DNA of 64,000 bases from Ananas comosus (Eukaryota > Streptophyta > Magnoliopsida > Poales > Bromeliaceae): the NCBI RefSeq assembly GCF_001540865.1, contig NC_033628.1, forward strand, positions 4,326,831-4,390,830, given 5' to 3'. The notes under the pieces are model-generated. The model made no database searches, was not told the origin of the DNA, and saw only the letters and a list, made by a program, of their open reading frames with translations. Position numbers and translations under genes: made by a program. This document shows, in pieces, positions 7,301 through 57,890 of this stretch. Position 1 is the first letter of the stretch. The number at the start of each line of letters is the position of its first letter.

Positions 7301-10300
7301 CGGCATGCTTCCGTGCCGACACATGGTATGTTTGCGTGCCGATGGATACGTACGACATCCTACTGGCACGCTTTGGCACGGATTTATTTCAGTTTTTTGG
7401 GTTTCAATAAACTTTTATAATGTTATTTTGAAAGATTTAATTAAATAATTATGAATATTTACTATGTATAACTTATCAATTTACATATTTGTAAGCTTTT
7501 TTGTATGTGAAGTACAACTACACCTGATACAAAATAAAAATTTTTACATGTTAGAATTTTAAAAGTGCAAAGACATTTCTTTCTTTCTTTTGATCATATT
7601 ACAGTTTTTCTTCTATAAAATACAAAAAAATAATTTTTAAAATAATTTGAAAATATTATTTTTAAAAGTATTTGAAAAAAAATATTTTTTAATTAATTTT
7701 TTCAAAAAAATTAGATCTATCAAAAAAATTAAGCAATAAATTTTATGACAAATAAATTAAATAAATTTATGTATCAATTGATTTAATTTAGCTTCAGTAT
7801 TTTTAATCTTCTAACGCAAAAATAAATTTTTATATTTGATGTGCCTCAAAATTTGTTTATTGAGTTCGATTTTGTTCTCTTAGTTTGCCAAAAATTTCAT
7901 GGTGCAACAAATTTTGATAAAATAATTTATGAAAAAAAATGGATGTCTATGGTGGAAGCAGAGGACTCAAGCCGATAAGGGTGGTGCGGGGGGTTTCGCC
8001 CTCTGCCTTATGGATCGGATATGTAAATTAAAAATTTGCCCGTATATTGATAAACAAAAAAATCAAATTATAATTTTTTTAACTTATCTAACAAGTAAAT
8101 CTTTGATTTGCAATATCCTTGGGGGGTGTGGGATACTTCGTGGTATCCCAAAGAACAAAACAAAAAGAAAAAAAAGCAAAAAGCAAAAAAAAAAAAGTAT
8201 GCCAGCACGGCACAGTGCCGTGGCCCGGACTTGCGTATTGCTCTGTCTCGCGCGATACGCAGGTTCGTGCCACAACGGAGAGGGGGCTCCGAGACCCCCC
8301 TGTACCGTGCACCTAGAAAGTGGCACGGTATGTGCCGCACTTTAAACCTTAGTTTTATATATAAAATATAATAGGGCTAAAATCTTTAACTCGACTATAG
8401 TATTTTGGGCGGTAGCTACGCCTAAGAGGTTGAAAGGGTTAAACGTGTTAGGGTTAGAGTAATTCTAGGATGAGTGACCTCCTAGGAAGTGGGACATCAC
8501 AGTTCGTATCAGAATTAATCACCAGTCAGAAATGTGAGACGAGTCTTGGCTGAGCTAGGATCATACAGTGGGCAAAAGGCCACCCTCGAGTTGACAATCG
8601 TTGTGGGTGGAGTGTAGCTCTCCACAAGGTCGGCTAAGGCTAGCGAGACGAGTTTCACATCGCCTAGTGCTTGTGAGTGTGTTTGAGCCTGACAAGGACG
8701 TCAGGACTTAAATGGGGGAGAAATGTGACACTCCTAGAATTTGAAATAGTCATATATATAAGGAATAATAGACCTAAAACCTCTTAACTCGGTTATAGCA
8801 TTTTGGGCGATGGCTACGCCTAAGAGGTTAAAAAACTTAATCATGCTAGGACTAGAGCGGTTCTAGGGTGGGTGATCCTCTGGAAAGTGGGGTATCACAC
8901 TGGTATCAGAGCCAGATTGTTCATTTGGGTGTCCAAAATGTCTACAAAACTTGAGAGATCAAGAAATTTGATCACCCAATAATTTCCTAAAAGGCGCTGT
9001 TGGGAAGGAAACAATGTTTGGCGCTTTAACGGAAAAGTAGAAGAGGGATATGGATGCCAAAGCCCTTAAGGCCATTCATAACGAAGTTCTACGTGAGTTC
9101 TTAACAAGAAGACTGCCGCGGCTCTATGGTTGAAGTTTGAGTCTCTTTATATGATGAAATCTTTCACAAATAAATTATATCTAAAGCATTGGTTACTTAT
9201 GCTACGCATATCGGAAGGTATGTCTATTAAATCTCATCTTAATGCATTTAATTATATTATTGCATATTTACAATCAATAGATGTAAAGATCGAGAAAAAA
9301 AGGAAGCCCTTTTATTTTTATGTTCTTTACCTCCGTTATATAAGCTTTTCAGAGAAACCTTCCTCTTTGATAGAGATATCTTATCTATTGAAGATGTCAA
9401 GTCGTTTATGCATTTTAAGGAACAAATTGATCGGCAGATCAATGGTAATTTGAGTGAAAGTACTGCAGAGGGCTTTGCTATGAGAGGGAGGCTCAAGAAA
9501 AGGGTTCTAGCACTAGCAGACAGAAATCAAGATCAAAGTCACAACATAGGAATTTGATTTGTAATTATTGTAAGAAGAAAGATCGTATCAAATCTAAATG
9601 CTTCAAGCTAAAGAAAAACAAATGCAAAACAACAAGAGTATAAAACAAGGAGAAACGAGCAGAAGTTACTCTTGCTGATGGCAGTTCTGATAGTTTGGAT
9701 TATGTTCTCTCTGTGTCTGACGAAATAAAACTTATGAATAATTGGATAATGGATTCGGCTTGTTCCTTTCACGTATGTCCTAATCGGGATTGGTTTTCCA
9801 CACATGAATCTATCAAAGATAGAGTTGTTTTGATGGGTAATTATTCTCTATGCAAAACTATTGGGATAGGAGTAGTGCGAATTAAAATACATGACAACAA
9901 AGTGAGCACTCTTTCTAATGTTCGGCATTTTTTGAATTTGAAGAAAAAATTTCTCTCTTTAGGTCTCCTTGATGCTAATGGATACAAGTACACCACTGAA
10001 GGTGAAGTTATGACAATTAGCAGAGGTGCTCTTGTTCTAATGAAAGTGAAAATGGATGAAAATTTATATATACTACAAGGATCTACTGTTACCGGTTCTG
10101 TAGCTACTTTCTTGTTTTTCGATTCGGATTCCAACATTATGAAATTATGGCACATGCATTTCGTGCACATGAGCGACCATGGGATAACTAAATTAAGTAA
10201 GAGATGCCTCTTATGTGGTGAGTATAGAAAAATTAGAGTTTTGTTAACATTGTGTATTTGGCAAGGCAAAAAGGGATAAATTTCAGTATTACAATTCACA

Positions 10301-33655: not shown

Positions 33656-34525
33656 ACACACAATAGGACACGTAGAAAGGGGCACAGATCTTGACCTCGA
33701 CAGCCGTAGTGAATATAAGGAGTTGAAAGAATACTGACAATAGCGCCTCGAAAAACATACAACAGACAAACAAACAATTTTGAGGGGGCCTCTGATGCCA
33801 CGGTGTCGCCGAGGCCTCCCACAGCTCCGCCTGCTTCGGATGCATTAGCCTTTGGCGACTTTGCGGCTATGAGGGCATCCTTGCTGGACATCCAGGCCTG
33901 AATGGAGGTCATCACTCAGGACATACAATAGTAAGGTCGGGTGGTCATGGACATAATGATCGCCAAGTAGAGAATGGTCGAGAGGCTTACAGAGCTGAGG
34001 CCTTACCGCAGCAGAAGCTGCCGAACAACAATCATCCTCTAGTACAGTAGCAACAAATGGTGAAACAAGCCGAAAAGAACGTGAACCAGCACAATGTGAT
34101 TGTCGAGAATCACACCGGCAGGTTCGGCCACCAACCGAACAATCAAGCTGAAAACTTTCCGGACAAAAACTTCCAAGCCAACAACCCTCCATATATTAGG
34201 GGTTACAGGCATTGGAGCCTATAGCGGAACGACTTTGTCCCGCGCTCGACCAGGCCGAGAGATCTGGAGATCCACAACGGCCAAAGAAATAATGTGGATT
34301 ATATTTGGGCCGGAATGATCAGCGGATCCCTCCACAGTACTAGCCTACCGAGGCCAAACTGGAATTAAATTGGAGGATTGAAGAACCCCTTCGAACCTAA
34401 TTTGGCCTAAACAACAGGTGCTATGAGCGGCCCATGCACAGGCCACCATAACCCACAGAGATCGATAGAAAAATTTTGTTTGCAAACTATAATGAGTCGA
34501 ACTCCTTATTGTGGAAGTTAAAGAA
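33656..34525. mobile_element. Internal remnant between inverted LTR-like arms
   Basis: Contains gag-like low-complexity coding fragments (Ala/Pro/Asn/Gln-rich) without an intact frame or recognisable domain. Probably a non-autonomous gypsy-type element. Its last 160 bp (34365-34525) recur at 35068-35231. Confidence 0.5.
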
Positions 34526-35066
34526 TATTGTTCGTCATAAGTTTGGGCCTGTTTGGTTCAGCTCTTTGATCCAATCTTAAATTAGAACCCCAGATTGGAA
34601 ATTGAATCAGTAAGAAATAAAAAATTATTCCACACACATTCCAATTTATATTTAGAATACAAGTTTGAAATTAAATTTCCAGCTTCAAATTTTCACTGAC
34701 GTCGCTATATGATCCATGATCTTTATTGCACAATGCCATTAAACAACAAAGACATTATAATCGTTCGTTGATATAAAGGGCTGTCGCATTGTGCCTGAAC
34801 TAAGAAAGATATAATTCCTATAACTTTGATCTAACTTTCTCAATGAGTTCCCTCCTTAGGATTTTCCCCGAAACTGATTTCGGCACGCTGTTAACGAAGG
34901 TAACTCTTCTCAATCTCTTAAAAGGAGCAACCTGTAATCGTGGAACAAAATTAAGGTAATAAAACGCAGCTTTGAATAAAGCATAACTCTTACAGAAAAA
35001 TTCGCATACATACATACAGGGATAAGATGTTCAGAATGGTATATCTCACTATTGTTGTGTGAAATC
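34526..35066 (-). repeat. Second copy of the ligase gene 3' end
   Basis: 541 bp nearly identical (roughly 2-3% differences) to 42325-42870, covering the 3' flank, last coding exon and part of the last intron of the ligase gene. It stops at a single N (35067). Confidence 0.93.
34818..34931 (-). pseudogene. Duplicate terminal exon of the 4CL-like gene
   Basis: Encodes the same 37 residues, [20 protein letters not shown] onward to RSKL and stop, as 42618-42731, with a conserved acceptor. No other ligase exons accompany it, so it cannot be expressed as a ligase. Likely an unmerged allele or a misassembly rather than a true gene fragment. Confidence 0.9.
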
Positions 35067-35231
35067 NTTAAATTGGAGGATTGAAGAACCCCTTCGAACC
35101 TAATTTGGCCTAAACAACAGGTGCTATGAGCGGCCCATGCACAGGCCACCATAACCCACAGAAGAGATCGATAGAAAAATTTTGTTTGCAAACTATAATG
35201 AGTCGAACTCCTTATTGTGGAAGTTAAAAGA
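35067..35231. other. Single N and repeated 160-bp contig edge
   Basis: One N at 35067 is followed by a direct repeat of 34365-34525 (ggaggattgaagaacccctt onward). This is the signature of two overlapping contig ends joined without merging. Confidence 0.85.
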
Positions 35232-35839
35232 ATTACACTGAAAGGAGCCGCAAGCGATTGTACCTGGGTTCTCTGCTGGGACTTGACCTCCTAAAGAATG
35301 CTACATTTGGCCGCTTGGCTTGGACCAAACTTTGAAACTACTGAAAATGGTCACCTCTCGGTCGAATTTGAGTGCCTAGGAAACCTAGAACTTGGGCCGG
35401 AAGGTGAAAAACTGTCAGAACCTCCCTGACTAAACTACTGCAGAAACAACGACCACTACTACTACTGGAAACTTCGAACTAAACTACCGAAAGCTAGAAC
35501 TACCGAAGGGTACTTCTATTACTCTTCTTCTGTCTCTCAAGAAAATAAATTAGATTTTTGAATGTTTGGAAAAAAAAAAAAGGCCTTTCTACTCATCTGA
35601 CCTGACTTGAGGTATTCATAGCCTCTGCCTCTTCCAATCTGACTCCGAGTCCACGAGAATCTTGGCCAAATCCTGAAATCTCCGGGCATGGTTATCTCTT
35701 TCCTTACGCCGGACGGCCGATGTCACCCATTCACTTCAAATCCAAGACCTCTCTTTCCTGATTCAAGCTAATCTCCTCATCAAAACACCAACAACTCAGA
35801 TTATTTATCACCCTAGACGAGCCAAATTTAGCATCAACA
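35195..35839 (-). repeat. LTR-like arm, right of an inverted pair
   Basis: On the - strand starts TGTTGATGCTAAATTTGGC; inverted relative of 33071-33655. The two arms point towards each other, unlike the direct LTRs of a normal retrotransposon. Confidence 0.75.
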
Positions 35840-37699: not shown

Positions 37700-37722
37700 N
37701 NNNNNNNNNNNNNNNNNNNNNN
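37700..37722. other. Assembly gap (23 N)
   Basis: Run of 23 N directly followed by a TA microsatellite (37723 to about 37779). Confidence 0.99.
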
Positions 37723-37795: not shown

Positions 37796-40700
37796 TTATC
37801 CAGTATCATTATGTCTATCTACTGGAAGGAGATGCTCCCACAAGCTCTTCAGTTGATTAATCTTGTAAATTCCAATGAAAGGGTCTGGATTGGTCATTCT
37901 GAAGATCACATCATTTCTGACCTCCCAAATGACCCACCAGCATGCTATTAAGCCAATTAGCCCGGGCCTCGAATTTGACGAACCCTTCCTTTTTATCCAC
38001 CTGTCCCAGACCAAAATCACATCGTCACCCAAGTCTCTTGTCCGGACGCTGTCCAATGTCTTCACCAATAGGAACTTGGAGAACACGCACCGAGTAAATA
38101 AATGATTAACCGTTTCCTCTCCCATCCCACATAACACGCAGCATGTGTTGCCAACCCATCCTCTTTTAAGTAGGTTCACTGTAGTAGGGATCCTTTTCCT
38201 GAGGACGAGCCAGCAAAACACTTTTACTTTTAGGGGGATACGAAGTTTCCAAATTTTACTAGTGTGAATGTTCCTTATACCCCCATCACACAACATAGAA
38301 TAGGTTGATTTGACCGTAAAACCCCCGTCAGTAGTCCATCGCCAGTGCACACTGTCTGGACCTTCTACAGTTCTGATGTTGGGTACCACGGCCATAAGTG
38401 CTGATATGCTAGGGTTTAACCCATAATCGGTATTGATGTCACACCCTAGTATCATGCTCCAATTCCATCCATTGCTCATCCAGCATTCACTGATTTTCAG
38501 ATTTTTGTGAATGGCTAACTGGAACAGCTCTGGAAATGACGATTGCAAAATAGTTTCCCCACACCATCGATCTGACCAAAACTCGATATTCCTACCGTTG
38601 CCTACCTTACATAGTACTCCTAATTTGAAGATCTCTTTTAGGCCAAGAATGCTTTTCCACCAGAATGAGGGAGGTTTGAAAGACCTTCCTTCCTTCAATG
38701 GTCTTCTTCTAAGATAGAACAATGCGTGGATAATCTTGTTCCATTGCACCTGAGGTGCTGTATGAAACTTCCACCACCACTTAACTAGAAGGGCTTGGTT
38801 CATCGTGGCGATATCCAGTATTCCAAGTCCTCCTTCTTTCTTACTCCTACAAACGTTCTTCCATGCGATTAGACACCCCTTACCCGGAGAGTTGAGTCCT
38901 CCATTCCAAAAAAAGTCTCTACGTAATGCCTCGATTCGCTTGATTACCCATTTCAGAGCCTTGAAGATTGACAGAAAGTAAATGGGTAGATTTGTCAGAA
39001 CAGCGTTCACTAAGGTTAGTCTTCCCCCTCTCGACAAGAGTTTCGCTTGCCATCCATCGATTTTGCTTTGTAATTTACGGATAAGCCCTCTCCACTCCTC
39101 TTTAGGAGGTGTTCTAGTAGACAGAGGCAGACCTAGATATCGGGCGGGTAGTATGTCAACTCTACATCCAAGTAAGTTTGCTAGCCTTGCCGCTTTCCCC
39201 TCATTCTTTCCAATATAAAATAGCTCCGACTTTTCCTTGTTGACCCTCATCCCAGACGCCCATTCAAAGAGCTGCCGCATAAATTTTAGGCTTTTCATGT
39301 ATCTTCTCTTGGCCTCCGAAAAGAAAAAGGTATCATCCGCGAATTGGATAAGGGGAATTCTGGCTTCGTCAGACGGGCCAAGGCCTATAAAGAAATTGTT
39401 TGAAATTGCCTCATTCGTCATACGGGCAAGGCACTCTACAACCAACAGAAAAAGAAAAGGGGATAGCGGATCTCCCTGCCTTACCCCCCTTCTTGTCTTA
39501 ATCTACTTTGTCGGTTCACCATTGATCAGAACAGCCACCTTAGCATTACAAATGCAAAGTCTCATCCACTCACACCACTTGTCATCAAAGCCCCACTATT
39601 CTAAGATACGGAATAAAAACGGCCAGTATATTCTGTCATACGCCTTTTCGAAATCCACTTTGACCCCAACTCCCTCAGCAGCCTGCCTACTACCCCATCC
39701 AATCAACTCTTGTACAGCTACGAAGGCATCAGTGATGTTCCTCCCCTTCAAAAATGTCGATTGGGAGGGGGAAATCAGCTCGCTCATAATACACTCAAGT
39801 CGATTGGCTAACACTTTAGAAAGGATCTTTTGTACCCCATTCAGTAAGCTTATGGGCCGAAAGTCATCCGCTCTCTTAGCTCCTTCCTTTTTCGGAATTA
39901 AGCAAATATATGCGTAGTCAATAGGGCTAGTATTCAGTCTGCCTTCATACATCTCCTGAAAAAGATGTAAGATATCCTCTTTGATGGTGTTCCAAAATAT
40001 TTGATAGAAGCTTAGCGGGAACCCGTCGGGTCCCGGTGCCTTGTCGCTACCTAATTGGAAGACCGCCTTTCTAACTTCATCGAGGCAAAAGGGTCTGGAG
40101 AGGAATGCTACGTTGGTTGGACTAACCCTACTCGATCGAAAGAGGCCACTCCATTCCCCAAAGGACGATCGGGCAGAGTCGTCCGGTGAGAATAAGTCCT
40201 TAAACTTGTGGTAGAAATATAATTTTTTGTCTTCATCTGATCTGATCACTGCATCTCCCTCTTCTATTATATCAATCCTATTAATTTTTCTTCGACCGTT
40301 AGCAGTAGCATGGAAGAATTTGGTATTGTCATCTCCTTCCCTAAGCCAGTGTTGTTTCGCTCTAGTTTTCCATAAGATTTCTTCGTCTTTCAGTATCCTA
40401 TTTAGCGTACCTTTTATCTCCTCCCTTTTCTTAAGTCTCTCCTGAGATAGCTCACTCTTTTCCTCCTCCTTGTCAATCTCCTGAATTTCTTCCATTAGTT
40501 TTTTCTTTATAGTTATGATACTATAATACTCGTTCTTGCACCATTCTTTAATTCTCCTTCGACAGTGTCTCAGTTTTGCCGTGAACGTAAGAACGGCCGA
40601 ATTTTCCCGATTCCCCTCTTGCCACCAGCCTGGTAATTTGGATAAGAACTCCTTGTGTTTTAGCCAAATGTTCTCGAATCGAAAGATTTTCTTCCTCCTT

Positions 40701-41440
40701 GCAAGGTTTCTCTCTGCCGATAAGAGAATAGGGCAATGATCTGACGTTATTCTGGGCAAGCTTTCAACCTTGGTTAAGGGAAAATCAAGATCCCATTCTG
40801 TCGAAACGAGAAACCGATCAAGCCTTGCAAGGGTCGGAGTCCTCTGCATATTGGACCAAGTATAAGATTGGTTAATCATAGGTAGGTCAAGTAGTTCCAA
40901 ATCCTTAATCATAGCATTAAATAGGTCCATCGCCCTCTGACTCCAAGTCCTCCCTGTCCGCTCCTCTTGACATCTAGTACTGTTAAAGTCTCCACACATA
41001 ATCCACTTTCCCTTACATATATCCTTCAAAGAAAGCAGTTCCGCATAAAAATCCTCTTTACCATCCCAGGTAGCCGGCCCATACACATTAGTGATGTAGA
41101 ATCTTGTTCCGTCGATGCCTAGGGTGAAAAGAACAGTTACGGAAAACCGTCTCACAATGACTTCGTGGCAAGTAAAGACGTGCGAGCTCCAGCAGGTAAT
41201 TAGACCCCCGGAAGCTCCTTCCGATTCAACAAAGACCCGTTTATCCAGATAAGAGCCACCAAAAGAACGTAAAAATGATCCCGACACATGGCTAACTTTC
41301 GATTCTTGAAGGCACACAACTACATTACGTAGTACTGAGATGACATTCCTAACAGCAAGACGCTTAGAGGGGTCGTTTAGCCCCCGTACATTCCAACTAC
41401 ACACCCTAATCATAAAGCACTCATAAACACCAATCGCCAA
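37796..41440 (-). pseudogene. LINE ORF2: endonuclease-reverse transcriptase, two in-frame TAG stops
   Basis: One continuous 1215-codon frame with only two lesions, TAG at 39596-39598 and TAG at 39503-39505, and no frameshift. The N-terminus (MIRVCSWNVRGLNDPSKRLA) starts an AP endonuclease with CGDFNSTR and SDHCPILLS. The RT domain has FRPISLLNGVQKILSKVLAN, GVRQGDPLSPFLF (the stops lie just before it) and the catalytic FADD (QFADDTFFF). The C-terminus carries a zf-RVT-like domain (CWLVLRKRIPTTVNLLKRG, CCVLCGMGEETVNHLFTRC). Plant L1-type LINEs have this layout. Confidence 0.92.
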
Positions 41441-42320: not shown

Positions 42321-42617
42321 TCCTTATTGTTCGTCATAAGTTTGGGCCTGTTTGGTTCAGCTCTTTGATCCAATCTTAGATTAGAACACCAGATTGGAAA
42401 TTGAATCAGTATGAAATAAAGAATTATCCCACACACATTCCAATTTATATTTAGAATACAAGTTTGAAATTAAATTTCCAGCTTCAAATTTTCACTGACA
42501 TCGCTATATGATCAATGATCTTTATTGCACAATGCCATTAAACAACAAAGACATTATAATCGTTTCGTTGATATAAAAGGCTGTCGCATTGTGCCTGAAA
42601 TAAGAAAGATATAATTC

Positions 42618-42731
42618 CTATAACTTTGATCTAACTTTCTCAATGAGTTCTCTCCTTAGGATTTTCCCCGAAACTGATTTCGGCACGCTGTTAACGAAGG
42701 TAACTCTTCTCAATCTCTTAAAAGGAGCAAC
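42618..42731 (-). CDS. 4CLL: 4CL-like exon 6 with SKL ending
   Basis: 37 codons plus TAG. Carries the catalytic Lys of [11 protein letters not shown] and the PTS1 tripeptide SKL. A second copy of this exon is at 34818-34931; this one is taken as the real exon because it lies next to exon 5. Confidence 0.93.
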
Positions 42732-45700
42732 CTGTAATCGTGGAACAAAATTAAGGTAATAAAACGCAGCTTTGAATAAAGCATAACTCTTACAGAAAAA
42801 TTCGCATACATACATACATACAAGGATAAGATGTTCAGAATGGTATATCTCACTATTGTTGCGTGAAATCAGAAAAACGAAACTAGATTGCAATGCAGAG
42901 TGGTTTCTTCTCAAAACCCGAAAAGCAAAAAATACTGGAACATAACTCAGCATAATTTCACCTAGAATCTAAATCTCGAAAAGACATGTATAGATGTCCA
43001 TTGTGTTGCCAAAGTTTTTCAACATTTCTGTAGTTTATATCTCAAAAGTAGATATACAGATCGTCCCTGTGCTATCACAATATTGCAACTTAATTGCTAT
43101 ATGTTTCACTTGTACACTGTAGGCCCTGGACTTCATGCACTTTTGTTCTTAACCACCAAAAATACTCTTAATTCTCTTTTAATTTACCATTTTGACCATT
43201 CTGTTGTAAGTGACTCGCATGATTTCGTTCATTTCAAACAGAATTAACAGGTCATTTTACAACAAAAGCCAGATTATTTACCTGTGACTGCGAGGGACTA
43301 AAGTACTTTTTATGTGAGGTTCACGGCTAAAGCATATTGCTGCAGCGTTTTGCTGAACAGTACAGAGACAACATTGCAATATCTGGGTAGTACAGGAACT
43401 ACCTATATAGCTTTTTCTCTTAAAAATATTGTTCGGGTTATTTGAAAGAATCGCTACTCTTGTTTGCTAGCTATTACTGATGCTCTGTAGGTTTTTTGCC
43501 TTGCTAAACAATCAAATCAGTTCCTATGCAGGCTTTCCATTTTGAGGTCGCCCATCGGCAGGCATTTATAAACAGGCAAGCCTTACATGAAATATATCTG
43601 TCAATACATGTGATGGTCCCAGAATTTACGAAACCCGCCAATACCTTTCAATGTCTGTTCCCCAAATTAAAGCAAACAACTAATTTCCTCATCATCGTCA
43701 GAAACTGAGCAGCCTAGTATCTAACATTTTCATTTTTTCTATTTCTATCTTATCCCTTTGTCATAGAAGATAACACCCCACGGAAATTATGGAAACATTT
43801 GTTACAAAGCGATGCAAGGATAACATCCCATGCAAATATGATTTTGTGACACACGTCTTGTGTGCGTGCATATATGAAAAACGAGGTCAAGAGTAGGTAG
43901 ATAATTCTTCTAGGAGATGTATGTTTGTTCTATCGTATGGTATAACAAAAACATTTTAAATATGAGGTTGATTCATAAATTGAAGTTTTAATCATGTATT
44001 ACCTGCTTTGCAATAAATTTCTGTACATCCTCCTCAGTCAGCGAACTGTTAGGAGACCGGACAACATAAGCAATAGGAACCTCACCTGCTTCAGCATCAG
44101 GAAACCTGAATATGGCAGAGAATGTTCTGCATTAGATATTGCAAAAAAGACTAGAAAAGAAGAAAAATTAATGCCACCAATATTTAAAGTAAGATTCATC
44201 CAACTTACGGAATGACAACCGCATCAAGTATCTCAGGATGAGAAAGAAGTAAACTTTCAAGCTCCGCAGGCGCAACCTACCAATGTCGGAATAGATGCTT
44301 AAACTTCAACATATCATGTAAATTCTTTCAGGACGAGGGTAAACAAAAAGCGGGGNGGTGGCGGTGGGGTTGTGCTAAGGTTGAATTTGATGTAAGCAAT
44401 TCATTTGACTTGCACATTGGTGCATAAACCTATAGTTACAAAACCCTGTGGACAATAATGCTTCAAAAATTAATTTAGACAAGCAACACAGGTAGGAGAC
44501 CATGCAGAGAGTAAAAATGGACACTATTGGATCCTCATCAGCAAGCATAGCTGTAGTACCTATTTGTAGCCATCCTAAGACAACCCTCTCATTGACAAAT
44601 TATTAGGTCTTTAATTATCACAGTGAGGATGCACGAATAGACAATTTTAAATTTTGAATTTTGTCATAGAATTCTTCCAGCTAGTAAGATAGTTTTTGAT
44701 CTAGGTATTAAGTGTCCGTTCACACCAATACATCCATTCTATTATATTCTGGCTAAAAAAGATAGCTTCCCAAAATAGTCTCCTAAAATTAATACTGCAT
44801 GCATTTCCAGCAGTTTTATCTATGCCAATATCCTCACAGCATGGTACAAAATTACAGCAAAAATAAAACAGTTACAAGTTATTCATAGGTTACCTGGAAA
44901 CCTTTATACTTGATGAGCTCTTTGAGTCTATCAACAACAAAAAGTTGTCCCCAGTCATCAAAATAGCCGAGATCACCAGTATGCAACCAACCATGTTTCA
45001 AAGTCAAGGCGGTAGCTTGAGGATTGTTGAAATAACCTGATATACATAATATACTATAAGCCAAGATGATTTTATGCATCCATATAATGACATAAACATT
45101 GGTCTAGAAGTATATGCACCCATGTGCATGCAAAAATATAAGATAGCAGAATTCGCAGCTGGAAGCGTATCCTAATAAATAACTAGTTTCACTGAAACAT
45201 CTCTTCATCAAAATATTTTGACCTTATACAGAGTGCGTTTGATTTGAATTAAATGGATTAGTTATATAGTCAGTGGTACTTCAATATGCAAACAAAGATT
45301 GAGTGGGAGAAAGGGAAAACATAGTACTGCATATGGTTAGCATTTCAATTTCCATCAGTACTCTGAAGCTTCATTTTATAGAACATTTTTGGGCGAATTT
45401 GGCTACTTTCTGAGCTTTGGGATAATAATCAGTTCGTCCTTTGAAAAAAAGCCAGCAAAAATAAGAGGAAACTCGTAGGTCAGAGATTTGAAGAGATAAT
45501 ACAAGATTCTGAGGGTGCAGAAATTTAATTTAAACGATGATAATATAACTTTCAAGTGCAGACTAAAATTGATGTAACATCTTAATTATTATCACATCAT
45601 CAATCACAATACTTTCACATCACTTCGACATCAGCAAGTTGTCAACATTTAGCCAATTAAAATTGATTGTGGGACTTGATTGCAACAATTCAGAAAGTTC

Positions 45701-51800: not shown

Positions 51801-53222
51801 CAAGAAAAGAGTACAATAAGGTAAACAAAAAGGCCTGATACTTTCTTTCTTAATCATACCTTGACCCGGTCAGTTCCAGCATTAATAGTACAATTAAACA
51901 TAGGGACCCTAAAGTCCAATCCAACGCCACGCTAACATCGACCATATCACAATTGTTGACGTGCAAGTATTCATCACTTCAATAACTTAAAAAACTGATG
52001 CAATGCAATAAAGCCTCTTAAAATAAAAATGCCTCTTCAGAATTGAGAAGAACAGCACAACAAACAAACAAACAAACAAACAATTGAGGCACAATCAATG
52101 GCAAGAAGCAAATTAGTTCATCATATATGATGATTGAGGAAGAGAAGAGATTATTAAAATTAAAATCCAGCGGCGAAATATGATTAGTACCTGAACGACG
52201 TCGGCGTCGGGGAACTTCTTGGAGACCTCGCCCATGACCTCCTTGCCGAGCGGCGCGGCGCCGGAGCCGATGAATTTGAGCGAGCTGAGGTCGTACTTCC
52301 CGGCCCGGCCGAGCTTGGCGAGGGCGATCATGACGGGGGGCACGCAGAAGAGGTGCGTCACGCGGAAGCGCTCCACGGCGCGCATGACGGCGTCCATGTC
52401 GAAGCGCGCCATGGCGACGACGGTGTTCCCCCGCGCGAGCTGCGCCAAGGTGATGATGGAGAGGCCGAAGATGTGGAACATGGGGAGGAAGCAGAGGAAG
52501 GCGTTGGGGCCCTCGCCCCTGGCGTCCTGGTCGGCGGCGGCCATGACGGCGGCGGAGATGAAGTTGCGGTGGGTGAGCACGACGCCCTTGCTGGCCCCGG
52601 TGGTGCCGGACGAGTAGAGGAGCGCCGCCGTGTCCGACTGCTTGATCGGGGGCGGGGAGAAGTCCGACTCGGAGAAGCCGGCGACCAGGTCGGAGTAGTA
52701 GTAGCAGACGGCCGGGGCGTCCTTTTCGGGGGGCGGCCGGAGACGGGAGGGGGAGGGGGAGTCGAGGAGGACGGTGGGGAGGCGGAGCGGGGCGACCTTG
52801 GGCCAGAGGTCGGGGACGGTGATGGCGAGGCGGCAGCGGGAGTCGAGGGCCTGCTTGGAGATCTCGGGGAGGGTGTAGAGGGGGTTGACGGTGGTGGGGA
52901 CGGCGCCGAGGGAGACGAGGGCGAGGAAGGAGACGGGGAAGAGGAGGGAGTTGGGGGCGAGGAGGAGGACGACGTCGCCCTTCGACACGCCCAGCCGGGA
53001 GGACAGGGCGGCGGCGGCGGAGCAGACGGCGGAGCGGAGGGCGCCGAAGGTGAGCGAGTCACCCGAGGAGGCGTCGGCCAGGGCCACCCGCTCCGGGAAG
53101 GCGGCCGGCCGGCGGAACAGGAAGCCGAACATCGAGAGGTCCGGATCCGATGGGAAGGCCGCCGCCGGCCGTAGCGACCTGTACACGCCGTCGGCGCCAG
53201 AGTAGCCGGACGGATCCGCCAT
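42618..53222 (-). CDS. 4CLL: 4-coumarate:CoA ligase-like acyl-CoA synthetase, peroxisomal (6 exons)
   Basis: Exons (in transcription order) 53222-52191, 47047-46855, 45036-44894, 44276-44209, 44105-44003 and 42731-42618 are all GT-AG, in phase, 1653 bp, 550 residues. ANL superfamily enzyme: it adenylates a carboxylic acid and transfers it to CoA. AMP-binding box [21 protein letters not shown] is at residues 201-220; [11 protein letters not shown] follows; GYGMTETCG opens exon 2; HTGDLGYFD and [20 protein letters not shown] are in exons 3-4; the catalytic Lys region [13 protein letters not shown] is in exon 6. The C-terminal SKL is a peroxisomal targeting signal, so an OPC-8:0/fatty-acyl or aromatic acid ligase of the 4CL-like group is more likely than cytosolic lignin 4CL. 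The substrate cannot be read from sequence. Confidence 0.95.
42732..44002 (-). other. Ligase intron 5
   Basis: No element recognised; 42732-42870 is part of the segment duplicated at 34932-35066. Confidence 0.55.
44003..44105 (-). CDS. 4CLL: 4CL-like exon 5
   Basis: [20 protein letters not shown] then [14 protein letters not shown], part of the mobile C-terminal domain. Acceptor ATTCAG, donor GTAATA. Confidence 0.93.
44209..44276 (-). CDS. 4CLL: 4CL-like exon 4
   Basis: 68 bp encoding [20 protein letters not shown] and VIP; acceptor TGGTAG, donor GTAAGT. Confidence 0.93.
44894..45036 (-). CDS. 4CLL: 4CL-like exon 3
   Basis: [43 protein letters not shown]: end of the large domain and hinge. 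Acceptor TATCAG, donor GTAACC. Confidence 0.94.
45037..46854 (-). other. Ligase intron 2
   Basis: AT-rich, nothing recognised. A single N at 44356 lies in the next intron downstream. Confidence 0.55.
46855..47047 (-). CDS. 4CLL: 4CL-like exon 2
   Basis: [20 protein letters not shown] to the [12 protein letters not shown] motif (4CL box II). Acceptor AATCAG, donor GTAGAG, phase 1 at the end. Confidence 0.94.
48798..48838. repeat. (TA)n microsatellite
   Basis: About 20 TA units inside the hAT-type element. Confidence 0.95.
48871..49767. mobile_element. Non-autonomous hAT element, GGCAC-rich family, copy 3
   Basis: 897 bp; ends caaggattaaagtg and ctttaatccttg; perfect 8-bp duplication gttctatt (48863-48870 and 49768-49775). 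GGCAC/GTGCC words cluster at both ends and the core is AT-rich. Best-preserved flanks of the three copies. Confidence 0.92.
49931..51331. mobile_element. hAT-type MITE in ligase intron 1
   Basis: Left arm gaggaatgcttcaatacacc and inverted right arm agagcaatgctcctatgcac are related over about 50 bp; flanked by a perfect 8-bp duplication aaattaat (49923-49930 and 51332-51339). It holds (TG)n(TA)n near 50716-50760 and, at 50825-51028, a fragment related to the element at 60268-61268. Confidence 0.78.
50716..50760. repeat. (TG)n/(TA)n microsatellite
   Basis: TG run followed by TA run. Confidence 0.9.
52191..53222 (-). CDS. 4CLL: 4CL-like exon 1
   Basis: 344 codons, very GC-rich, ending DVVQ with donor GTACTAATC. 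Holds the N-terminal domain and AMP-binding P-loop. Large overlapping frames on both strands here are by-products of the GC-rich composition. Confidence 0.95.
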
Positions 53223-53920
53223 TTCCCCTGCTTATCTTAATAAAATTGTGGTGACTTCGGCTCCGCGTGTGGAGTATTTATAGTTGTAGTAGTAGTAGTA
53301 GTGGGATCTCCGAAAACACGGAAACTATCGGCTACACATGATGGTGTTACAAGGGCATCTCACCACCACGAGAAATAAGTCAGTGGTATTATTAGACTTT
53401 CGACTTTGATGAAAGAATGCGTAGTTAGAATAATGATAGTGTTTTAAGTATATGGTTGGTTAAATAGTATTACGAATGAAAATAATCAAAAAAGTAAATA
53501 TAATGATGAAAAACTTAATAGCACTAGTTGTTTAGTATTATTAGAAGCACCACAGCAGGACTATATATATTTCGGCTTTGGTACTTTTAAAAGCACATTT
53601 AAAATCATCAAGTACTCAGTTGTTGTAAGTTTTACACTGTTATATATATATATATTTTATCAATTTTATTTTTTAGATCATTCCATTCCACCAATCACTT
53701 ACTAAATCTTTAAAGGGACCACTATTATCCAAACACTTTAAATTTTTATCCAAAGTTGGAAAAATTCATTAGCACCAATAAAATGTTAATTTTAAAGTAT
53801 AGCAACTAAGTTCTATGTATAGAATCCGGCGATGCTGCTTTTATAAGCACTATACAGGATTCTATATATTTATAGAGAGAGAGAGAGAGGTCCCTCAATT
53901 TCTAATTTTTAAAAACTAGN
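53223..53920. other. Upstream of the ligase gene to the rDNA seam
   Basis: Promoter region and AT-rich DNA, ending in a (GA)n run (about 53875-53890) and a single N at 53920 that marks the edge of the reversed rDNA block. Confidence 0.6.
53275..53282 (-). promoter_or_regulatory. TATA box of the 4CL-like gene
   Basis: TATAAATA on the - strand, about 53 bp upstream of the ATG at 53222, in good sequence context (CTATAAATACTCC). An AGT trinucleotide run sits just upstream. Confidence 0.65.
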
Positions 53921-54435
53921 CCGCGCCGGGCGTTGCCAGGCGCGGGGCTCGGCTCGCCGCCTGGCCGAGCGCGGCAAGGCGTAGGCCGGCCCCGCGTAGC
54001 GGCCGGGGGTAGGCGAAGGGAGGGCCGTTAAAGTTCGTGAGAAACTGAGAGAAAAGTTTCAGGAAAAGTAGAAAGGGAGCGCCATGAACAAGCGATAGCC
54101 AGAGAGCGGGCATAAATCGGAACCTGCCTCAAATGGCGGGCTAACCCCGACGTAAGGGTTTGTTGGGCTGAGCGGCTGTCGCGGAGCACCACGCCGTCCC
54201 AGGCCCGGCCTGCCCCGAGAGTGGGAGGGGCCGCGGGGAAAGGTCCCCTGAACCCGGGCCAGGCGGCGACTCCTGCGAAGAGGTCTGATGTTAAGCCTGC
54301 CGCGCCGGCGGGCTAAGAGTTCGACCCGACAAGGGCCAAGCGAGCGGCAATGATCCCCTTAGGAGCATTCAAAGAAGAGGAGGCGAATAACTATACGAAT
54401 TTGAGTCGCCCACCGGGGCGGACTGGACCCCAGCG
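53921..54435. rRNA. 25S rRNA 5' part, written in reverse (not complemented)
   Basis: Read from 54435 leftwards it gives GCGACCCCAGGTCAGG, CCCGCTGAGTTTAAGC and, later, CGAGAGACCGATAGCGAACA, AAGTACCGCGAGGGAAAG: the canonical 25S 5' end. Neither the + strand nor its complement read 5' to 3' gives this. About 515 nt; the sequence continues at 57675. Confidence 0.95.
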
Positions 54436-54699
54436 CCAGGCTACGCCGGGCGGGAAAAGAAAATGTAGCATTTCCCCCTCCGCGCGCGAGCCCCACCCCC
54501 AGGAGAGCCCCCGGCAAGCGGCGACCCCGGCCTCCGTGCCGCGAGCCGAGCGCCAGCGCAGGTGGTGAGCGGCACGGGCCGGGCGCGCCCGCCGGGCGAG
54601 AAGCCGGGCGGCGCGGCCTCCGCGCCCCCCGGTCAGAGGCGCAGGCGCCGCGGGCGAGGCGGCAAGCCCGCCCGCCCCGCGCCTCGCAGCGCTACGCAC
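54436..54699. other. ITS2, reversed
   Basis: 264 bp of GC-rich spacer between the reversed 5.8S and 25S segments; placed by its neighbours. Confidence 0.88.
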
Positions 54700-54855
54700 T
54701 GCGGGTCCGTCCGCACGGGAGCCGGCCTGCCGGAGCCCGCGTTGAACGCAAGTTTCTGATCTACCAAGCGCCCTAAGACGTTAAGTGTGGTCCATAGCGT
54801 AAAGCGATGCAAGAAGTAGCTACGCTCTCGGCTCTATAGGCAACGGCTCTCAGCA
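54700..54855. rRNA. 5.8S rRNA, reversed (not complemented)
   Basis: Right to left: ACGACTCTCGGCAACGGATA, ATCTCGGCTCTCGCATCGAT, GAATTGCAGAATCCCGCGAA, TTTGAACGCAAGTTGC. One oddity: the normally invariant CATCGAGTCTTTG reads CATCTAGTCTTTG. Confidence 0.95.
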
Positions 54856-55120
54856 ATCCACAATGGAAAATGCCAGCCGGCGCCCCGCCGGGCGGCGCGC
54901 TGCGCGCGCCGGCGGGGCGAAGGAAGCAAGCACAACGAACTGCGCTTTTCGGCGCGGCCCCAAAAGCAGGCAGGAGGAGGCGGCGGCCTGCCGCCCCCCC
55001 CTCCCCCGCCCCGCGGGCGGGGGGAGGCCGCCGGCTCCTCTCCAGGAGCCGGGGGCTCTCCTCCCCCGCGCGGGCTGCCAAGCCAGTGCCCACGCGCCCA
55101 GCAGGAAGCGCCCCAGAGCT
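54856..55120. other. ITS1, reversed
   Basis: 265-bp GC-rich spacer between reversed 18S and 5.8S. Confidence 0.88.
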
Positions 55121-56929
55121 GTTACTAGGAAGGCGTCCAAGTGGATGCCTTTGGAACAATGCTGAAGAGGAAGGAGATTTACTATTCCAAGTCACCTGAA
55201 GAGCGCTGCAGCGCTCGCCGCTTGGCGGGCGCAGCGGCGCTAGGCTTGTGAAGTGGCCTGGTAAGTTAGCCATCCTCGCTGCCCGCCACACATGTTTCCC
55301 GTCCCTGCATCAGTTGCGCTCGACTACTGAGCGCGAATGATCCGTAAGGAGCAACTTCTGGTTGTTAACGTTACTAGATAGGGGTAGTGCTACTTTAAAG
55401 GGTTCTAATGGGCCCGGACAGCCGGTTCCGATATCTGAGCAACTTATGTAGTCACATCGCGCGCACGCCGGGTCTTGTAGATTCCCGTAGTGTCTGGACA
55501 ATAACGGAGTTTGAAGGCACCGGACTCGCCGGTATCAGGGAGATTCTTCGAGCGGCGCCTCCCTACGGAGGCGCATCGATCAATCGTCCGACTCCAGAGC
55601 AAGCAATTGCCTTAATTGGTCTGTTTAGCGAGGTGGTTGATTCTTGCCGGTACGTGGTGGTGGGTATCTTAGTTCTTTCTCGAGAGTCAGACAGTTAGGA
55701 ACGATACAGGCCTGGACCATTCAAAGGGGCACAACTCAGTTTAATTCGGCGTCCGAGGTGCGGACCACCACGGGAAGGCAGTTAAGGAAATTCAAAGTCG
55801 GAACGCTGGTATGAGGGGGGCCTTGGGTTTCTGAAACTAAAGAGTATTCCACGGCCGCCTCAGGACTTTCGTTGTAGGCGGCTAGGGATCAGCCGTAGCA
55901 AATACCAACTCTGATCCTGCCATAGACTAGCAGAAGCTCGGGGGTTGAAAGCAAGAACTAATTACTTTTGTAGGAACCGTTTACGAAAGCGTCACCAAGC
56001 AGAAAGTATTTAGGTTCTTAAAGTGGAGACTGATACTTTATGCTTACGGGGGCTGACAGGGACAATTAGTAATGAGGCTAGGGCTTCCGGTTGTGTTATC
56101 CTGGCCTTAGGATACTACAATAGGGTACGATTACATATGTCTCGCACCCGAACGAAACTCGTGAGATTAAAGAAGTTTCATTGCCGCGGCCTCCGTGCTG
56201 GGCCGGTCAATTCCGGCCCTCGCGTAGCGGCCGTCTTCCCAGCCCCGGCAGCCACGTGTGGGCCCCCGCCTGGCCGCCTGGGCCGGGTTCCAGGTTGATG
56301 CTCGAAAAATTGACGTTGTTGAATTTATATGCGATAACCTCGACCTTAATGGCGCCGACGACCGTGGTCTGAACGGGAGGTTACCTAGGAGCAATTCCCT
56401 AAATCTAACATGAGTAAGGTTAATGGTCTGGGCTTCCCGGGCCATAACAATAAATAACAGTGATGGAGGGGCACAGTCCTAACCCATTAAACGCGCGGAC
56501 GACGGAAGGAACCTACACCATCGGCAAAGAGTCCGAGGGAGAGGCCTTAGCTTGGGATTAAGAGGCAGTGGGCAGTGGTGGTACCATCCGGGGATAGGAT
56601 GGTAGCTTTCAACTATCCCGTCTTTAAACTTACTACGCAGCGGCCGTGCTTCCGGCACGCTAGGCAGCTCAATAGTACTTAGTAGCCAAGCGCCCCGCTC
56701 GGGCGCAGCCGGAAAATAGATTATTTACGCAGGGAAGGCCTTCAGCCCCAAACAACGTGCATAATCGAGATCTTAATGATGCCAATAGGCTCATCGTCCA
56801 TGGTAGTTTGTTTGATATTGACTAAATTACTCGGTAAGCGTCAAAGTGTCAGACTTAATCAAGTATGAATGTGTACGTACCGAATTAGAAACTCTGTTCG
56901 TATACTGATGACCGTCCTAGTTGGTCCAT
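55121..56929. rRNA. 18S rRNA, complete, reversed (not complemented)
   Basis: Read from 56929 to 55121 it begins TACCTGGTTGATCCTGCCAG, contains GACGATCAGATACCGTCCTA and ends GAACCTGCGGAAGGATCATTG (last 20 quoted bases at 55121-55141). Length 1809, normal for plants. On the + strand as given the order of bases is backwards, and the - strand gives the complement of a backwards gene, so neither strand encodes rRNA. Confidence 0.96.
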
Positions 56930-57674
56930 CGCGCAGGAGGCGCTGCGGCCGCGGCGGCGGCCCCGCCGCCCGGCCGGCAGCAGAGCTGCTCCCGCCGAAT
57001 GCTTCTGGCTGGCTCCAGGCCCGGCCCCCGGCTTCAGGGGCCTCGGGCGTCGTAGGCGGCGTAGGCTCTCGCGAGCGCCCTGCAGCCTTCGGCCCGGCCG
57101 TGCCCCCGGGCTCAACGTCCCGGCGCGGCAGGCCCCCGCGGGCTGCGAGCCGGCGGGCTCGCCCGCCTGACCGCGCACGCAGCGCAGCCGAAGGGCGTCC
57201 TGGCCCATCTACCGTGTCCGTTGCGCGCGGCGAGCTTCCGGGCTTTCCGCGCTTGCTCGCTTCCCTGACTCCCCTGCCGGCGGGGCCGCCAGCCGACGCG
57301 CCTCCGTCCCTCGGGCGCCCCGCGTGCTTAGGCTCTGACGAGTGCACGGCTGTGCCGGCGCAGGCCCAGCGGCGGGCGTGCGGGCGGGCGCGGCGCGGCC
57401 TGGCCCTCCGGGTCTGTGCTCCGAAAGCCCCCCAGCTACGCCCTGCCGTTGGTCGCCTCCAGGCGGCTCGTGCTTTCCCATGCTCCCTCCTGCCAAGCCC
57501 TGAACCCGCTCCCCTCGCGGCGGCAGCCCGCGTCGGCGTGCCGCGACCCGCTCGCCCCGCGCGCGGACGTTCCGGGTCACGCGCGCGCGCGTGACGGTGG
57601 CGCGGTCCGCGTCCCCGCGCCGCGAGACGTCGCGTCGGGCCCGCGGCGCGCCCCGGCCCCGCGAGACGCCCGCG
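56930..57674. other. External transcribed spacer, probably reversed
   Basis: GC-rich 745 bp next to the 18S 5' end. Its polarity cannot be proved by conserved sequence; it is inferred from the perfect 25S rejoining when 53921-57674 is turned round. Long open frames here come from composition. Confidence 0.65.
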
Positions 57675-57890
57675 GGCGGCCTAAGCCCGGGCGGTCGATC
57701 CCGCCTCGGAGACCGCCGCCGGCGCGGCCGGGGAAGCGGCGCGCGCCGCCACGGCGCGCCCCCTCCGGGGGGCGCCAGCGCGCCCAGGCACCGGCCCGCG
57801 GGCTCCCCATCCGACCCGTCTTGAAACACGGACCAAGGAATCTGACATGCGTGCGAGTCGACGGGCGCGAAAACCCGGGAGGTGCAAAAC
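57675..57890 (+). rRNA. 25S rRNA continuation, normal orientation
   Basis: Reads forward ggcggcctaagcccggg and later gggctccccatccgacccgt, cttgaaacacggaccaagga, gtgcgagtcgacggg: the 25S sequence directly following what is at 53921. Similarity fades after about 57885, so the 25S is cut there. Confidence 0.93.

Follow-up and report, generated by a model that had tools for sequence, protein, structure and literature searches.

A string-reversed 45S rDNA block beside a gap in the pineapple reference assembly, with string-reversed cloning vector on other contigs

A block of 3,754 bases in the pineapple (Ananas comosus) reference assembly, at positions 53921-57674 of the 64,000-nucleotide stretch analysed here (the window), is 45S rDNA printed with its letters in reverse order and uncomplemented, the true order running from 57674 down to 53921. 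The block is very probably a data-processing artefact of genome assembly. The assembly comprises 381,958,007 bases in 3,128 contigs; the window occupies C8:4326831-4390830 and the block is present with identical letters at G000:C8:4380751-4384504, assembly and window agreeing at 9,000/9,000 bases of a piece that spans it. The reversal is a recurrent assembly error, found again on cloning vector on other contigs, and is not a biological feature; the block holds no biological novelty.

Identity and edges of the block

Read from right to left, the block begins with the 5′ external transcribed spacer (ETS; 56930-57674), which lies upstream of the 18S and of which the segment 57172-57265 recurs on contig C18. 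It continues with a complete 18S rRNA gene (55122-56929; 96.9% identity over 1,753 bp to reference locus L001), with ITS1 (54856-55121, between the 18S end and the 5.8S start) and with the 5.8S rRNA (54730-54855, taken from the 5.8S start through the conserved GAACGCAAGTTGCGCCCGAGGCC motif). The remainder of the 5.8S and ITS2 follow at 54435-54729, placed between mapped motifs and with an approximate inner limit, and the 5′ part of the 25S rRNA (53921-54434) starts near 54434 and is cut in the D2 region at 53921. The region right of 53920 is GC-rich. A first-pass annotation had described a complete 18S, ITS1, 5.8S, ITS2 and the start of 25S as readable only backwards, and all of these are present once the string is reversed; the roughly 745 bp of 5′ ETS in the block and the forward 25S beside it were absent from that account.

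The block was compared with nine rRNA-bearing loci (L001-L009) using Blast on both strands. As printed it is matched by 0/9 and as a reversed string by 8/9, which bears out the claim that it is written backwards without complementation. The pieces of the eight matching loci fall in rDNA order on one strand (order judged by eye), so that uncomplemented reversal followed by an rRNA search, the check that had been proposed, returns a collinear rDNA match; the ninth locus, L006, matches nothing but the forward 25S (57811-57839). Under dust filtering the reversed block gives 42 matching pieces, whereas 0/40 control strings, made by taking 20 random segments of the window in each polarity, are matched. 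Of the small-subunit columns that do not vary among five references, the reversed block departs at 0/328. An inversion in the genome was considered and rejected, as the reverse complement has no homologue match either: both strands fail (Blast 0/9, Rfam nothing).

The block also escapes ordinary rRNA detection, as had been predicted. Rfam searches of the whole window on both strands found nothing; for the GC-rich stretch, lax settings returned only two weak microRNA-family matches, far below gathering scores. Among 72,556 plasmid records the printed block has no match, while the reversed 18S part matches 450, the best being a record of 1,764 bases (96.8% identity, 97% of the query covered); these matches presumably arise via rRNA genes. 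The number of false open frames had been put at about a dozen; the count is instead 21 open reading frames of at least 60 amino acids overlapping 53900-57700. A reversed-18S open reading frame has no match among 5.8 billion proteins, which is not proof that such blocks are lacking elsewhere, and pattern scans gave 0 matches in viral contigs and 0 in genome contigs (first scan).

The reference loci carry unexpected labels. L001 (NZ_CP050525.1, 1-1764) is filed as an Acinetobacter baumannii plasmid and is a eukaryotic 18S rRNA gene (Rfam SSU_rRNA_eukarya, 1,657 bits; 96.9% identical to the pineapple 18S). L002-L009 are contigs filed under bacterial genomes or metagenome-assembled genomes, yet carry a eukaryotic LSU motif; in L008, Rfam detects eukaryotic SSU (5′ cut), 5.8S and LSU (3′ cut).

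On the left, the block starts directly after a single N at 53920, a gap mark that adjoins position 53921. Beyond this N, the left flank has normal polarity and contains the N-terminal part of a 4-coumarate–CoA ligase-like gene (52113-53222, minus strand; AMP-binding domain, PF00501), whose reading frame is 100% identical over 93% to the Ananas comosus protein P0121. On the right, the edge lies at 57674|57675, and 25S of normal polarity follows on the plus strand from D2 to a point shortly beyond the conserved GACCCGTCTTGAAACACGGACC segment (57675-57890, with the limit near 57890 set by eye). Each of the eight loci that carry the LSU motif (L002-L009) matches the printed sequence within 57807-57876. 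Seven of the eight, L006 being the exception, have a further match in the reversed block, and on the same restored strand.

With the block turned in place, the antisense strand carries an open frame that crosses the 25S join 53921/57675. Of 7,956 candidates scored against its translation, 1,846 proteins match at E ≤ 0.001, and the best of them has 87% identity and extends over 98% of the query. Among the 120 matches listed, those with a name are for the most part hypothetical proteins of plants or 'Protein TAR1', which in our own reading are open frames on rDNA. An alignment of seven sequences is gap-free at the join, and alignment with P0001, a plant-type rDNA protein, gives 86-87% identity with one gap, located away from the join. 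On either side of the join, removal of 1, 2 or 4 bases breaks the P0001 alignment into two, whereas removal of 3 bases leaves a single alignment with two gaps (313 and 315 bits, against 319 with none removed); the right edge is therefore fixed except for a latitude of 3 bases. Both edges originally given for the block thus stand. Since the block turned in place continues the 25S at the join, the operation is an in-place reversal. An in-place complement was considered as an alternative operation and rejected, as it would set antisense ETS against sense 25S.

Two further comparisons of the 25S were made. The joined 25S matches 427 records of the plasmid collection, none covering 80% of it, and none of the 10 listed reaches the join. 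Against seven distant references, the forward 25S piece departs at 9/54 invariant columns and the block at 11/180, figures that include a D2 region of unreliable alignment.

Reversed sequence elsewhere in the assembly

A genome search with the printed block returns the block itself and one other place, on C18, where 57172-57265 (94 bp of ETS, 100% identity) recurs at G000:C18:10054267-10054360 in the same printed polarity, that is, string-reversed. The stretch that begins there (L033:1501-2000, equal to G000:C18:10054267-10054766) is composed of the string-reversed ETS piece, a 27-base poly-C and a cloning-vector arm, followed by an N run. The ETS piece starts abruptly after AT-rich sequence and gives way to the poly-C and other sequence, and the stretch meets the long N run 500 bp past the ETS start (after L033:2000). 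Turned in place, its AT-rich end would adjoin the AT-rich contig and its ETS would adjoin the gap.

The turned C18 stretch contains what we take to be the SP6/lacZ arm of a HindIII-cut BAC or pGEM-type vector. A string-reversed 57-mer from it matches 8 of the 72,556 plasmid records (E up to 10), five of them over at least 80% of its length (best E 1e-13) and four at 91-94% over at least 88% of its length (E 1e-12 to 1e-13); the stretch as printed, 500 bp long, has no match in the same collection.

In the genome, the printed 500 bp of C18 find 21 places: the stretch itself, the main block, contigs C2893 and C1015, and 17 vector-part matches spread over 15 contigs. Eight of the 17 were read and confirmed; the other nine are matches of 36 to 40 bp at 93-95%. 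In all, 12 loci were read (L034-L045), including the C18 site and the main block (L035). A 19-base vector core occurs in nine of the 12, the C18 site included, twice as the plain reversal and seven times as the plain complement, which is the plain reversal viewed from the other strand; its normal polarity occurs in 0/12. The same nine loci match L046, an 850-base piece with the vector arm, only when string-reversed (94-100%, E 2e-34 to 8e-14), and as printed 0/12 match. The main block, L036 and L042 have no L046 vector match, and no cloning vector was seen in the main block. Because these loci were found with a reversed query, their polarity was thereby selected and the amount of normal-polarity vector is not inferable from them; their mere existence counts nonetheless, because none should exist. 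String-reversed vector arms are thus present on eight further contigs (L037, L038, L039, L040, L041, L043, L044 and L045), some beside Ns: Ns lie near the vector in L038, L039, L041 and L045, and L037, L040 and L043 contain none.

The sequence around the vector was assessed with a k-mer polarity score that compares every 6-mer with its own plain reversal as a log ratio. Training was strand-symmetric and used 264 kb of C8 from which the block had been left out. The score is statistical, and the firm evidence is the vector. It is negative in 7.6% of the reference 300-bp windows, which belonged to the training set and are flattered by it, and in a left-out control 72/1,041 windows of 500 bp are negative, including some inside the block; the score does not set the rDNA block itself apart. 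Left of the vector, L037, L040 and L043 are each negative in 5/5 windows of 300 bp, and right of it they are positive in 5/5, 4/5 and 4/5, respectively. L044 is negative in 4/5 windows on the left and positive in 5/5 on the right. L039 and L045 each have a negative window immediately left of the vector and a single N, at 1022 and 1160, respectively, as expected if a block spans from the N to the vector; a further negative window of L039 lies to the right. The N of L038 directly adjoins the vector, and the one negative window of L041 is located at the vector and its N run. Reversed blocks elsewhere thus seem to take in ordinary-looking genomic sequence, which in three of them would amount to 1.5 kb or more.

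Two parts of the C18 stretch outside the vector match C2893 (L036; 73% over approximately 197 bp) and C1015 (L042; 84% over 58 bp) in the printed polarity. Either these places are reversed too, or else part of the C18 stretch has normal polarity. L042, with a negative score in 6/10 windows, may carry another reversed block.

Origin of the reversal

That the block reflects an assembly, gap-filling or file-handling error, as the first-pass annotation had supposed, is upheld by three observations: the block abuts an N, the 25S is continuous when the block is turned, and vector is likewise reversed elsewhere. As cloning vector shows the same reversal, no cellular process accounts for it. The cause is probably an extension of gap edges with clone-derived sequence that was inserted back to front; BAC clones were reportedly employed in the F153 pineapple genome project. 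A scaffolding or gap-extension step would have lengthened contig edges with sequence of another source, probably BAC clones, the extension string being kept in the order of an outward walk from the contig edge and then pasted in without being turned round. Pasting in walk order would place the contig-nearest base furthest from the contig, beside the N, and would print the outermost end (vector or ETS), which was due to face the gap, against the contig. We infer this step from geometry: the main block has the gap on one side (N at 53920) and the expected contig continuation on the other (25S at 57675), and at the other reversed places at most the gap side is visible.

We consider it likely that the error is systematic and so far unremarked, with extensions at contig edges, up to several kilobases long and in some cases with BAC vector, letter-reversed at many gaps on many chromosomes, and with the genes and repeats they contain invisible to homology search until reversed. 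A phrase search of open papers found no report of uncomplemented reversal as a systematic assembly error.

Three other explanations were weighed. Complementing upper-case letters only is a common scripting error, and a script with this fault that flipped a contig carrying soft-masked rDNA would leave the masked part reversed and uncomplemented, yielding a plain reversal of a repeat block such as the one seen. The original contig would then have read antisense 25S followed by sense ETS, and the 25S would not be continuous. In-frame 25S is what results when the block is turned in place, so that the continuity lies in the unflipped frame; moreover, the reversal extends to the vector, and the sequence around the vector also scores as reversed. 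The predicted continuity being wrong, this explanation fails, and we regard it as very unlikely. Less probable again is a reversal confined to this window and absent from the assembly, for example a planted test item. A clean, exact reversal is what such an item would be expected to look like, but the assembly is identical across the block (9,000/9,000 bases), string-reversed vector is present on other contigs, and the block edge coincides with the commonest type of gap. A real rearrangement of the pineapple genome has nothing in its favour beyond the printed sequence and a probability close to nil, as antiparallel DNA cannot be rejoined into a plain reversal, cloning vector in the same assembly shows the same reversal, and 18S conservation is intact (0/328 departures), unlike that of an old, unused insertion.

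The block can be set beside three known situations. Once reversed, it has the sequence and the order (ETS-18S-ITS1-5.8S-ITS2-25S) of the nuclear 45S rRNA gene unit of flowering plants; it differs from that unit in its reversed, uncomplemented letter order, in being cut in the 25S D2 region, and in standing as one piece, with a gap on one side and a truncated forward 25S on the other. It resembles misassemblies at scaffold gaps, with their chimeric high-copy repeats and vector contamination, in lying at a gap N and consisting of high-copy DNA, with vector in its sister blocks. In contrast to the usual gap misassembly, the inserted string is reversed, not misplaced or reverse-complemented, and is therefore unseen by homology searches. 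Reversed, uncomplemented database entries are a known kind of submission mistake, although the phrase search of open papers turned up none, and the block shows the same kind of letter error, but inside a chromosome-scale assembly and with recurrence at several places.

The importance is practical and concerns users of this reference; it is a matter of data, not of biology. Reversed blocks hide real sequence from homology searches, produce false open reading frames (21 of at least 60 amino acids here), place cloning vector in chromosomes where vector screens do not see it, and distort repeat statistics. Screening assemblies with string-reversed rDNA, plastid and vector sequences provides a simple general check, and with 17 further string-reversed vector matches on 15 contigs (8 confirmed) this reference merits a full screen.

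Other gaps and neighbouring sequence

The window contains six N runs: single Ns at 35067, 44356, 53920, 61059 and 63324, and 23 Ns at 37700-37722. In the 264 kb of C8 surveyed, the single N is the commonest type of gap (13/18 N runs). Reversal has been shown at only 1/13 of these single Ns, that at 53920, and not every gap is therefore affected. Near the other Ns of the window the k-mer score gives no clear reversal, although short blocks are possible and the score right of 63324 is indecisive. A reversed self-comparison of the window found no second reversed block, its sole row being a 29-bp stretch that matches itself; a second such comparison gave no row. In a table of PMC8824783, the F153 pineapple assembly is listed at 377 Mb with a contig N50 of 0.02 Mb.

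A stretch of low polarity right of the single N at C8:4176006 was considered as a further reversal and rejected, as it is a tandem repeat whose relatives match the printed polarity. The array, with a unit of approximately 256 bp, extends from L016:9177 (G000:C8:4176007) onward. About 2.4 kb past its start, plastid-like sequence, which we take to be ycf2-like, runs up to the next single N.

Within the window, the single N at 35067 splits a repeat. To its right, 35068-35233 is a copy of 34365-34526 (97.6%), and the sequence there therefore has normal polarity; to its left, 34526-35066 is a copy of 42325-42870 (96.9%). The remains of a LINE-type retrotransposon, with endonuclease, reverse transcriptase and zf-RVT domains spread over two frames, occupy 37796-41440 on the minus strand.
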